Both the position numbers and the translations under genes were made by a program. The notes beneath the pieces were generated by a model. The model did no database searches. It was not told where the DNA came from and worked only from the letters and a program-made list of their open reading frames with translations. 64,000 bases of DNA, from positions 434,001-498,000 of the forward strand of contig NZ_CP063164.1 in assembly GCF_014931715.1 (NCBI RefSeq). Direction: 5' to 3'. Source of the stretch: Sulfurovum indicum (GTDB lineage Bacteria > Campylobacterota > Campylobacteria > Campylobacterales > Sulfurovaceae). Shown here piece by piece: positions 11,596 through 56,094 of the stretch; positions within the stretch are counted from its first letter, which is position 1, and each line of letters starts with the position of its first letter.

Positions 11596-11617
11596 GATGC
11601 ACTCCTTGTGTCATAAA

Positions 11618-11647
11618 GTGAGGAGTGAAGAGTGAAGAGTGAAGAGG
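11618..11647. repeat. Heptamer array (GTGAAGA)
   Basis: About four 7-bp units: GTGAGGA GTGAAGA GTGAAGA GTGAAGA. It sits between hisH and hisA and is followed by the hairpin GTATTGC-TCT-GCAATAC at 11656-11672. Confidence 0.8.
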
Positions 11648-26285: not shown

Positions 26286-26320
26286 GAATGTTGAATGTTG
26301 AATGTTGCATGTTAAATGAC
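26286..26320. repeat. Heptamer array (GAATGTT)
   Basis: GAATGTT GAATGTT GAATGTT GCATGTT AAATGAC, five 7-bp units just upstream of the DUF2061 fusion gene. It pairs with the array at 26352-26381 across a short core containing AAAAGCATTGTATGG. Confidence 0.8.
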
Positions 26321-26351
26321 AATATTTTTGTAAAAGCATTGTATGGTTGAG

Positions 26352-26381
26352 CATCGACCATCGACCATTGGCTATTGACTA
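26352..26381. repeat. Heptamer array (CATCGAC)
   Basis: CATCGAC CATCGAC CATTGGC TATTGAC TA, ending 7 bases before the last base of cysN. Its word family is the same as the arrays at 27800 and 28225. Confidence 0.8.
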
Positions 26382-26387
26382 AATCTC

Positions 26388-27857
26388 TCAACACTTCTTG
26401 CACTCCCACTCAGGAAAGTTCTCTCTGATATACTGGTTCAGTGCGCGTTCTGCATCGGTGTACTCACGGGCAGAGAGTTTTTTTACATCCTCTTCCCTGC
26501 GGCTGACACCGATGATCATACCGGCACCGACAGTGTTGTTGGTGATACGGTCGATGACGATGAAGGAGCCGGTCAGACGGTTCTCTTTGTAGGCATCTGC
26601 TGCAATGGGCTGTGTCAGTACCATTTTGCATGAAGCGATATCATTGAGGCCTAGTTTGCCGATCTGTTCCCGTTCATAGGTATTGACATCGACTTTATAG
26701 TTGATATGTTCGAAATTCCCAGTTACGACGGAGGTGGCACGTTTGATATCGTAGGTAGTACCTGGCTCCATAGGGGTCTCATCCATCCAAACAAGCATGA
26801 CCTTGAGGGAGTTGGAGACTCTAGGGAGATTTTTGGTATGGACGATCATATTGCCTCTGGAGATATCCACTTCATCCTCGGTGGTAATGGTAACGGCCAT
26901 AGGAGCATAAGCTTCCTCTGTGACGACTTCTCTGTTTGCTTCGGTGATATCGCCTGCATTGATGATATTTTTAACTTTGGTAGTTTTTCCCGAAGGCAGT
27001 ACTGTGATTTCATCGCCTACTTTGACACTGCCTGCAGCAATGGTGCCACAGAAACCTCTGAAATCAAGGTTGGGACGGTTGATATACTGTACAGGAAAAC
27101 GGAAGTCTTCTGTACGCTGTTTTTGAGAGATATCCATCGTATCGAGCAGTTCAAGTAAAGGTTTTCCTTCATACCATGGTGTTTTTTCACTTTTGTCGAC
27201 GACATTGTCTCCGTCAAGAGCGCTGAGGGGGAGATAGTAGGTATATTTAATGCCAAGCTCTTCTGCCAGCTCACTATAGGATGCTTTGATCTCATTGAAT
27301 ATCTCTTGACTGAAATCTACAAGGTCCATCTTGTTGATGGCGACGATAACATGTTCGATACCAAGCAGGTTGACGATGTAGCTGTGTCTTCTTGTCTGAG
27401 TCAAGATACCTTTTCTTGCATCGATGAGGATAATAGCGACATCAGCGGTGGAGGCACCCGTAACCATATTTCGTGTGTACTGCTCATGACCGGGAGTGTC
27501 TGCGATGATGAACTTTCTCCTCTCTGTAGCAAAGAAGCGGTAGGCAACATCAATGGTGATTCCCTGTTCTCGTTCACTTTGAAGACCATCGACAAGCAGA
27601 GCCATATCGATCTTCTCGCCTGTCGTACCGTACTTTTTGCTCTCACCTTTTACGGCTGCAAGCTGGTCATCAAAGATCATCTTTGAGTCATACAGCATAC
27701 GACCGATCAGGGTACTCTTACCATCATCGACCGATCCGCAGGTAAGGAAGCGGAGCATATCCTTGTTCTCGTGCTCTTTGAGATAACCGATGATATCGGA
27801 GTCGATGGTTGATAGTCGATGGTCGTTGGTAATATTGGTTTCTTCTTCTGTTCTCAT
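26388..27857 (-). CDS. cysN: Sulfate adenylyltransferase GTPase subunit
   Basis: Regulatory GTPase of ATP sulfurylase, which with CysD makes APS from sulfate and ATP. The 489 residues follow the EF-Tu-like layout: G1 GSVDDGKST (41-49), G3 DTPGHE (121-126), G4 NKMD (176-179), then beta-barrel domains. It is not fused to CysC. The first ~20 codons are unusual: conserved homology begins at about DIIGYLKEHENKD, while residues 8-20 (NITNDHRLSTIDS) are encoded by a heptamer array (27800-27830) running in frame. The start overlaps the stop of the four-helix-bundle gene (ATGA), so the two are translationally coupled. Confidence 0.95.
   Translation of the reverse strand: MRTEEETNITNDHRLSTIDSDIIGYLKEHENKDMLRFLTCGSVDDGKSTLIGRMLYDSKMIFDDQLAAVKGESKKYGTTGEKIDMALLVDGLQSEREQGITIDVAYRFFATERRKFIIADTPGHEQYTRNMVTGASTADVAIILIDARKGILTQTRRHSYIVNLLGIEHVIVAINKMDLVDFSQEIFNEIKASYSELAEELGIKYTYYLPLSALDGDNVVDKSEKTPWYEGKPLLELLDTMDISQKQRTEDFRFPVQYINRPNLDFRGFCGTIAAGSVKVGDEITVLPSGKTTKVKNIINAGDITEANREVVTEEAYAPMAVTITTEDEVDISRGNMIVHTKNLPRVSNSLKVMLVWMDETPMEPGTTYDIKRATSVVTGNFEHINYKVDVNTYEREQIGKLGLNDIASCKMVLTQPIAADAYKENRLTGSFIVIDRITNNTVGAGMIIGVSRREEDVKKLSAREYTDAERALNQYIRENFPEWECKKC
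27800..27830. repeat. Heptamer array inside cysN N-terminus
   Basis: GTCGATG GTTGATA GTCGATG GTCGTTG, four 7-bp units within the 5' coding part of cysN. Words are the reverse complement of the CATCGAC family at 26352 and the CGACCAT family at 28225. Confidence 0.75.
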
Positions 27858-28207
27858 GACTCCATATCCTTTTTAATGGAATTAATCAGTGCACTTAGCA
27901 TTTTACCGATTATTTCAAGTTCTGTAATCCAAGTTTGACCTTTTTCTTTAGGAATATAATATATTTTGATACCTATATAAATTTGTGTTTTTGCTTCAGC
28001 AAGGGAAGCTCTGGCTATATCTAAAAATCTTATCTTTTCTTGATCAGATATACGTTCCAACCCCTCTGCAATATTACTGGGAATAGAAAGTCCTGATCGA
28101 GTTAATTGATCCCTAAAGCCATAATCTTTAAGTTCAGATAAATTCAAATAGATATCTGCACTTAATGCAGCTGATTTTTTCCAAACATCTAAACTTTCAC
28201 ACTTCAT
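27854..28207 (-). CDS. Four-helix-bundle protein (S23/Avd-like)
   Basis: A 117-residue all-helical protein of the family first known from 23S rRNA intervening sequences and related in fold to the Avd accessory protein of diversity-generating retroelements. Marks: LDVWKKSAALSADIY, FRDQLTRSGLSIPSNIAEGLER (the family's most conserved segment, about 32-53), FLDIARASLAEAKTQI, and a final amphipathic helix. Members form positively charged pentameric barrels thought to bind nucleic acid. It sits between cysD and cysN, normally adjacent, and is bracketed by oppositely oriented heptamer arrays (27800-27830 and 28225-28255), suggesting insertion as a unit. AAGGA precedes its ATG. Confidence 0.88.
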   Translation of the reverse strand: MKCESLDVWKKSAALSADIYLNLSELKDYGFRDQLTRSGLSIPSNIAEGLERISDQEKIRFLDIARASLAEAKTQIYIGIKIYYIPKEKGQTWITELEIIGKMLSALINSIKKDMES

Positions 28208-28224
28208 TTTTTTCCTTTAATATA

Positions 28225-28255
28225 CTAACGACCATTGACTAATGGCTGTCGACTA
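28225..28255. repeat. Heptamer array (CGACCAT/TGACTAA)
   Basis: CTAACGA CCATTGA CTAATGG CTGTCGA CTA. It lies between cysD and the four-helix-bundle gene and supplies the cysD stop codon (TAG on the minus strand at 28253-28255). Confidence 0.7.
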
Positions 28256-29167
28256 AAAATAGCCTTCAATTTTTTTCAGTTCCATTGCACCTTCCTGGTC
28301 CTTGTCAATAAGACGTCCCTCTCTTTCAGAACTTGTCGAGAGCAGCATCTCACGGATGATCTCAGGCAGCGTGGTGGCTGTGGAGTTGATAGCACCGGTG
28401 AGGGGGTAGCATCCGAGGGTTCTGAAGCGTACCATCTCTTTTTTCGCTTTTTTACGAAGTTCCTCAGGCATTCTTTCATCATCTACCATTATTTTGGTAC
28501 CTTCATACTCTACCACATCACGCTCTTTGGCGAAGTAGAGGGAAGGAATGGGGATGCTTTCCAGGTAAATGTACTGCCATACATCAAGCTCGGTCCAGTT
28601 ACTGATAGGGAAGACTCGGACACTTTCTCCTTTGTCAATACGGGTGTTATAGATATTCCAGAGTTCTGGACGCTGGTTCTTTGGGTCCCATCGGTGGTGT
28701 TTGTCTCTGAAGGAGAAGATCCTCTCTTTGGCACGGCTCTTTTCCTCATCACGTCTTGCTCCTCCTATGACGGCGTCATAGCCGCCTGCATTGAGGGCCT
28801 GTTTGAGCCCCTCTGTTTTCATAATGTCGGTGTGGACTTTGGAACCGTGTTCAAAAGGGGAGATATTCATCTCTTTCCCCTTGGGGTTGGAGTGGACTAC
28901 AAGGTCAAAGCCAAGCTCTTTGGCACGCTGATCTCTGAACTCGATCATCTCACGGAATTTCCAAAGGGTATCTACATGAAGCATAGGAAAGGGTGGTTTG
29001 CCCGGAGCAAAGGCTTTCATGGCAAGATGGAGCATAACCGAAGAGTCTTTGCCTACGGAGTACATCATTACAGGATTGGTGAACTCTGCTGCCACCTCAC
29101 GCAGGATATGGATGGACTCAGCTTCGAGCTGTTTGAGATGGGTCAGGCGTGCTTGATCAATTTTCAT
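28253..29167 (-). CDS. cysD: Sulfate adenylyltransferase catalytic subunit
   Basis: PP-loop ATP pyrophosphatase that forms APS from sulfate and ATP, driven by CysN GTP hydrolysis. The 304 residues include SVGKDSSVM (37-45), [28 protein letters not shown] and [12 protein letters not shown], all standard for CysD. The ATG uses GAGGAAT overlapping the epimerase stop 3 bases away, so cysD belongs to the ugd-epimerase-cys transcript. A heptamer array reaches into its stop codon at the 3' end. A long antisense open frame over it is a reading-frame shadow. Confidence 0.96.
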
Positions 29168-38384: not shown

Positions 38385-38415
38385 ATTATTCATTATTCAT
38401 TACTAATTACTAAAT
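38385..38415. repeat. Heptamer array (ATTCATT)
   Basis: ATTATTC ATTATTC ATTACTA ATTACTA AAT, four to five 7-bp units ending 8 bases before the trpS -10. Confidence 0.75.
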
Positions 38416-42344: not shown

Positions 42345-42356
42345 ATAGTTATGTGC

Positions 42357-42384
42357 CTCATTCCTCATACCTCATTCCTCATTT
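42357..42384. repeat. Heptamer array (CTCATTC)
   Basis: CTCATTC CTCATAC CTCATTC CTCATTT, four 7-bp units in the opposite sense to the array at 42256. Confidence 0.85.
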
Positions 42385-53771: not shown

Positions 53772-54239
53772 ATGAAAATTGTAGAAGGAAATCTCTCCGT
53801 AGACAAGAGTAAAAAGGTAGCGATCATCAATTCGCGTTTTAACCACTTTATTACAGACAGGCTGGTAGAAGGTGCAAAAGATGCCTATGCAAGACATGGC
53901 GGCAATCCGGAAGATCTTGACCTTATTTTGGTACCGGGTGCTTTTGAGATCCCGTTTGCACTTGACAAAGCATTGGCTTCGGACAAGTATGATGCCGTAT
54001 GCTGTTTGGGTGCAGTTATACGGGGTGCGACACCACACTTTGACTATGTTTCTGCAGAAGCGACCAAGGGAGTAGCGAATGTCACACTTAAACACGGCAA
54101 ACCTGCAACATTCGGTGTATTGACTGTTGACAGTATAGAACAGGCGATCGAGAGAGCGGGAACTAAAGCTGGGAACAAGGGTGCAGAAGCAATGATCGGA
54201 CTCATTGAACTGATTAACCTTTATGGGGAACTGGATTAA
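53772..54239 (+). CDS. ribH: 6,7-dimethyl-8-ribityllumazine synthase
   Basis: Penultimate step of riboflavin synthesis, forming icosahedral or pentameric shells. The 155 residues show [11 protein letters not shown] (substrate Phe and Asn), [23 protein letters not shown] with the catalytic His, and [18 protein letters not shown] lies 10 bases before the ATG. Middle gene of kdsA-ribH-nusB. Confidence 0.96.
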
Positions 54240-54266
54240 AATTAGAAATTAGAAATTAGAAATTAG
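54240..54266. repeat. Heptamer array (ATTAGAA)
   Basis: AATTAGA AATTAGA AATTAGA AATTAG, nearly perfect, starting at the ribH stop codon and lying between ribH and nusB. It is the most regular array in the window, so perhaps the youngest. Confidence 0.9.
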
Positions 54267-54808: not shown

Positions 54809-54842
54809 ATCATTCAGCATTCAGCATTCACTATTCATCATT
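54809..54842. repeat. Heptamer array (CATTCAG)
   Basis: CATTCAG CATTCAG CATTCAC TATTCAT CATT, in the opposite sense to the array at 54703. Immediately followed by the mqnC SD hairpin. Confidence 0.8.
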
Positions 54843-56062: not shown

Positions 56063-56094
56063 ACTATTCACTATTCACTATTCACTATTCACTA
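56063..56094. repeat. Heptamer array (ACTATTC)
   Basis: ACTATTC ACTATTC ACTATTC ACTATTC ACTA, four perfect 7-bp units, in the opposite sense to the array at 55941. Confidence 0.9.

Follow-up and report, generated by a model that had tools for sequence, protein, structure and literature searches.

cysD and cysN encode the two subunits of sulfate adenylyltransferase, and in Sulfurovum indicum a third gene lies between them. What is this gene, and how did it come to lie there? We analysed a 64,000-nucleotide stretch of the genome (NZ_CP063164.1, positions 434,001 to 498,000; hereafter the window) and compared it with S23 loci from other bacteria. Profile models confirmed all three genes, in agreement with the original prediction that an S23/Avd-like four-helix-bundle gene separates cysD from cysN. 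The 117-aa ORF (27854..28207, minus strand) scored above the curated cut-offs of both TIGR02436 (105.6 bits, E 1.5e-30; cut-off 24) and PF05635 (106.8 bits, E 8.5e-31; cut-off 33.8). Upstream of it lies cysD, the small subunit (28253..29167, minus strand; TIGR02039, 493 bits), and downstream lies cysN, the large subunit (26388..27857, minus strand; PRK05124, 678.6 bits, and comparison with empty sites), whose start shares letters with the S23 stop in an ATGA overlap. Among the ORFs of the cassette, meaning S23 with its flanking arrays, there was no second ORF besides S23 and no Y1 transposase. S23 relatives with solved structures (2GSC, which is XCC0516 of X. campestris, and 2RLD) are pentameric.

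The gene had been described as bracketed by opposed arrays of the GTCGATG type, and the arms did match each other in inverted orientation only. The upstream arm (28224..28254, minus strand; AGTCGACAGCCATTAGTCAATGGTCGTTAGT in transcript orientation) runs from the cysD stop codon as purine-rich, degenerate heptamers (AGTCGAC, AGCCATT, AGTCAAT, GGTCGTT, AGT), while the downstream arm (27801..27830, minus strand; ACCAACGACCATCGACTATCAACCATCGAC in transcript orientation), also reported as a TRF row, is the inverse array (ACCAACG, ACCATCG, ACTATCA, ACCATCG, AC). Chance was judged by 3000 dinucleotide shuffles. The downstream arm had a lag-7 score of 13 compared to a shuffle mean of 3.5 (p 3e-4); the upstream arm is decayed, and its own periodicity was not significant alone (p 0.17). 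The arm-to-arm inverted match was 14 compared to 6.7 in shuffles (p 3e-4), and no match was detected at this locus in direct orientation (p 0.90). As proposed, the downstream arm is read in frame as the N-terminal codons of cysN (MRTEEETNITNDHRLSTIDSD...). The companion claim, that the other array supplies the cysD stop codon, held only in part: the array overlaps the stop, but array-free relatives have TAG or TAA there, which makes the stop position ancestral, with the array placed against and over it.

Lag 7 was the sole enriched repeat period across the window (seven arrays, with lag 14 as its harmonic), and no arrays were found window-wide at lags 4-6, 8-13 or 15. Past cysN, a GTCGATG-unit array without S23 (26352..26379, minus strand) forms the first arm of an array-only pair; its opposed partner, detected by lag scan (26286..26313, minus strand), has another unit, GAATGTT on the plus strand. 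This mixed-unit pair at 26286-26379 was the only gene-less inverted pair seen in the window genome. More single 7-bp arrays without a nearby S23 gene lie at 11617-11646, 38385-38413, 42356-42383, 54239-54266, 54811-54837 and 56063-56094. In a sister genome, G100, the post-cysN junction holds an S23-less GGGTTCGG pair, with an S23 gene of similar unit about 0.8 kb further on, and within cysN an array of GTCGATG units (L354:6968-6997; CCATCGACCATCGACCATCGACC when read with the transcript) lies in frame, where it replaces a short segment found in the window's copy of cysN.

The complete 2.21-Mb window genome carries nine S23 genes, and flank inspection placed 9/9 of them between opposed arrays, with a purine-rich array upstream in coding sense and its reverse complement downstream. 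The weakest brackets were those of L002, L004 and L009 (inverted scores <12). Units differ at nearly each locus and include AAGTAGG, AGTGAAG, GTGAATA, GAGCGTT, GTCGATG, the 6-mer GTGATA and decayed forms.

Across phyla, inverted arrays of 6-9-bp units bracket most of the approximately 200 S23 genes examined, Campylobacterota loci among them. In a multi-phylum set of 80 loci, arrays near S23 had period 7, 8 or 9 and none was found at lags 5, 6 or 10-13; the scan behind this set was seeded with the window S23 protein, so the set is biased to near relatives. Unseeded HMM samples are free of this bias, and HMM-sampled Gammaproteobacteria had inverted arms at 25/29 S23 genes. As a control, we used 1951 non-S23 ORFs taken from the same DNA as 88 S23 genes. 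Arrays occurred on both sides of 48/88 S23 genes and 47/1951 other ORFs, and on both sides with an inverted match at 38/88 and 11/1951, respectively (odds ratio 134, p 3e-46, with S23 loci that are not phylogenetically independent). The period was equal in both arms at 32 of the 33 loci with readable arms. Identity between the upstream unit and the reverse-complemented downstream unit was 0.82, compared to 0.54 between loci (permutation p at its floor). Direct-orientation brackets were a minority (L015, L055, L062 and L086).

We also considered inverted arrays as a general trait of small accessory genes, and rejected this since ParE toxin genes, which are small and accessory, had them at 0/29 loci. 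The enrichment of arrays near S23 genes that the original prediction anticipated is therefore present. That prediction had named two observations as damaging, a lack of such enrichment and relatives whose bundle gene between cysD and cysN lacks arrays; both were examined, and the association stands. Separately, GxxExxY genes (PF13366, PDDEXK_3) of Gammaproteobacteria (L388-L409, L412) resemble S23 in being bracketed by inverted short-unit repeats, at 20/28 loci and often directly behind the upstream stop codon, but the protein is unrelated and the units are about 8-11 bp (CTCTGTG, TTTGCG and CACGGATT types).

Do arrays also accompany S23 at the level of whole genomes? Density was measured in 20-kb regions picked without regard to S23, in 14 S23-bearing and 13 S23-free genomes. 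Away from S23, the density of 7-bp arrays per 100 kb was 4.5 where the genome had S23 and 0.29 where it did not (p 1.4e-4), in small samples where one genome, G020, gives 18/49 of the lag-7 arrays on the S23-bearing side; within the host's family, density was also associated with S23 presence (p 0.005). An inverted partner within 250 bp accompanied 12/61 dispersed arrays in S23-bearing genomes and none at a control distance, and these pairs lack S23. Single arrays with no opposed partner were common in the same genomes. Units of dispersed arrays tended to be shared with those of resident cassettes in 5/5 genomes, a weak trend that was convincing in no single genome, and we did not carry forward the idea that dispersed arrays are copies of resident units.

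These results bear on whether S23 is only a passenger, with arrays and array hairpins arising via polymerase slippage or template switching and S23 tolerated or carried in the loops. Arrays do occur without S23, and, in the available text of PMC4679880 and PMC4692102, the heptamer excess is ascribed through cited work to polymerase footprint slippage. Such an origin is harder to reconcile with bracketing that is nearly S23-specific and missing at ParE, although GxxExxY genes show something similar, or with a period and unit that agree across a loop of ~350 bp. Array abundance also follows S23 presence and not lineage alone. We regard a passenger role as rather unlikely.

Anatomy was drawn from 149 S23 loci with a clear arm pair. 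The upstream arm was the purine-rich one at 129 loci, compared to 17 with the opposite arrangement, and it begins a median of 3.5 nt past the stop of the upstream ORF (quartiles -8 to +12). Outer length was 431-513 bp, with a median of 465 bp. Neighbours were co-directional on both sides at 75% of S23 loci and 50% of controls, and the downstream arm is often in frame with the next gene, as with cysN in the window. One arm does not repeat the other's units in mirror order (mean z 0.2). The arms therefore differ from plain inverted repeats made by copying, and we rejected the idea that they are in-register mirror copies. That the arms have unit and period in common, but not order, points to a shared unit rule over copied ends.

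Unit similarity fell from 0.96 through 0.81, 0.62 and 0.55 to 0.52 as S23 identity dropped from >0.9 to <0.5; the unit is inherited with the S23 gene and drifts, and the two arms of one copy remain alike. Since the unit tracks S23 similarity only above approximately 50% identity, there is no fixed protein-unit code, and a deep code of this kind was rejected. Purifying selection acts on S23 itself (dN/dS mostly 0.03-0.2), and Q34, R37, E48 and E71 are near invariant. Two further patterns were seen. Among the Aliivibrio S23 loci L026, L027 and L028, the latter two have near-perfect terminal inverted repeats of ~35 bp in which heptamer-like units flank a small hairpin, CGCTGCGCTTGCAG. In Gammaproteobacteria, S23 cassettes recur between an apparent rpsU and a tRNA gene, both named by eye (L319, L321, L324, L327, L331 and L333).

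The nearest known system is the S23-encoding rRNA intervening sequence (IVS), and it raises the question of whether the arms act in RNA. In Coxiella, the ends of the IVS are complementary, variable heptamers precede S23p, and RNase III cleaves the element (PMC4990558). Like the IVSs of Coxiella and Leptospira, the cassette combines the S23 family with complementary ends; around the window S23 ORF these ends are supported at p 3e-4 and by a predicted stem, and the Coxiella length of 428-444 nt compares with the cassette median of 465 bp. The S23 loci L132 and L335 lie within 23S rRNA and carry opposed arms as elsewhere. The window cassette differs in its site, a protein-coding operon and not an rRNA gene, and in a downstream arm that has turned coding. 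rRNA is only one of many cassette sites.

An RNA-level, IVS-like element would have arms that pair in the transcript, a stem cut by RNase III, selection that keeps the arms complementary, and an S23 protein that acts on or protects RNA. The resemblance to the Coxiella IVS, the like arms at S23 genes within 23S rRNA and the strong co-direction of cassette and operon all suit this account, as does the window cassette, whose RNA is predicted to close into a long stem of both arms (z -2.65). Against it, arm mismatches were not biased towards G-U compatibility and if anything ran in the reverse direction (102 vs 146, a rough test), and the idea that G-U-compatible covariation betrays pairing of the RNA was rejected. 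Single arrays, which are common in S23-bearing genomes, are unable to form an arm-arm stem for want of an opposed partner. We consider an RNA-level explanation possible, yet unlikely.

Comparison of junctions gives the history of the site. cysD and cysN are uninterrupted in most genomes of the host's family, the kind of relative that the original prediction had proposed for comparison, and the relatives L093, L095 and L099 have an array-only junction (GAATGTT type, without S23). In another genus, L104 has a cassette between cysD and cysN with the window's unit and an S23 protein 74% identical. At least four S23 branches have entered this junction (L006/L104; the Vibrio loci L014/L017; another Vibrio copy, L267; and L053), and two occupy emrA-emrB, as counted on an S23 tree in which many deep forks are weakly placed. 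Conversely, the related S23 genes L004, L005 and L236 occupy different sites. Together with the S23-specific arrays, the empty, array-only and filled cysD-cysN sites agree with the earlier proposal of a small inserted unit bounded by the arrays. Insertion sequences and MITEs have terminal inverted repeats with a target-site duplication; the cassette has inverted arms, and in comparison with empty sites, where the first cysN codons prove to be replaced, no duplication was recognisable. Neither a transposase nor a target-site duplication was found for the cassette, and no excision was observed.

Stable occupation could instead mean that cassettes are regulatory inserts, kept in operons for expression control and not through mobility. 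Orthologous sites (L005/L228/L234) keep one unit over dS 0.5-1.2, and this persistence, like purifying selection on S23, also fits a host role. Less easily accommodated are the patchy presence of S23 within a genus, the empty and array-only sites, and the several lineages in one junction. Some genomes also carry dozens of S23 copies, many of them broken; counts per genome reach 33 or more, with broken copies among them. Host benefit as the main explanation seems improbable to us.

The last alternative concerns the relationship to Avd, the diversity-generating retroelement (DGR) accessory protein, which we take to be of the same fold family as S23. The original prediction raised a link in which S23, as an Avd relative, would work with a reverse transcriptase in array growth or movement, and this did not find support. 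A profile search of the complete window genome returned no match to RVT_1 (PF00078), and no reverse transcriptase lies beside the window S23 gene, unlike in a DGR; we therefore rejected such a partner for this genome, where the link is unsupported. Within the phylum, reverse transcriptases were present in 6/15 S23-bearing genomes and 20/106 of the rest (p 0.09 only). In G128, one of the six, the reverse transcriptase adjoins the genome's only S23 match, the Avd-like L133, which TIGR02436 detects weakly. This match speaks for the link, but L133 has no opposed arrays, and overall we view reverse transcription as highly improbable here. L133 (G128:C18:17763-18089) lies ~500 bp from the RVT_1 gene, and its flanks resemble a DGR template/variable region.

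Two other repeat systems share part of this layout. Like RAYT/REPIN elements, the cassette places one gene between inverted short repeats, with gene-less pairs (the 12/61 dispersed arrays above) and singles elsewhere, mostly extragenic. It differs in having S23 as the bracketed gene and no Y1 transposase, and in repeats that are tandem 6-9-bp arrays with a unit differing at nearly every locus, whereas REP sequences are palindromic. The heptamer repeats of cyanobacteria, Beggiatoaceae and Xanthomonas (STRR, TAACTGA, GGGAATC) likewise have 7-bp units and are mostly intergenic, and the window arrays resemble them in tandem 7-bp units above chance, with lag 7 and its harmonic and a downstream arm at p 3e-4. 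Xanthomonas has about 70 opposed heptamer pairs (PMC4692102), and XCC0516 is an S23 protein of X. campestris. Text searches of the heptamer-repeat papers (PMC4679880, PMC4692102) returned no mention of S23; our S23-heptamer link comes from other genomes. Beyond the Coxiella IVS, we found no published link of this kind in the open-access journal literature covered.

Collectively, these findings suggest that the S23 cassette is probably a mobile, IVS-like element with array termini, whose mechanism of movement we infer. Such an element would be ~0.43-0.51 kb long and apparently promoterless, consisting of a purine-rich tandem array of 6-9-bp units, mostly 7 bp, then the S23 ORF and a reverse-complement array. 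It would land directly past a stop codon in an operon, within 23S rRNA or next to a tRNA gene, oriented with transcription, and at cysD-cysN its arrival would have supplied the start of cysN anew and, with it, a new N-terminus. The classical intervening sequences of rRNA that encode S23 would then be one niche of the cassette, and S23-less inverted pairs and single arrays may be its non-autonomous or decayed forms. The S23 protein may recognise or pair both arms and in this way, along with replication or repair enzymes of the host, promote insertion and maintain the arrays. S23 could drive array growth or movement, and the best support for this is that arrays and S23 go together at the level of whole genomes.

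More tentatively, S23 might be the protein of a hitherto unrecognised class of bacterial mobile elements with neither transposase nor reverse transcriptase, and a cause of the heptamer repeats in many bacterial genomes. It would recognise short tandem arrays, keep opposed arms alike while the unit drifts, and spread array-only hairpins and single arrays; GxxExxY loci could be a parallel class.

S23 proteins are widespread and their structures have been solved, yet we know of no function for them, nor of an origin for the S23-encoding rRNA intervening sequences. To our knowledge, no mechanism beyond slippage has been offered for the over-representation of heptamers in bacteria. The cassette would place S23 proteins, rRNA intervening sequences and bacterial 7-bp repeats together in one element, and a single small protein with the DNA ends of that element would suffice for a direct test of what the element does. 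In operons of the genomes that carry it, the cassette would naturally give rise to new N-termini and new intergenic sequence.
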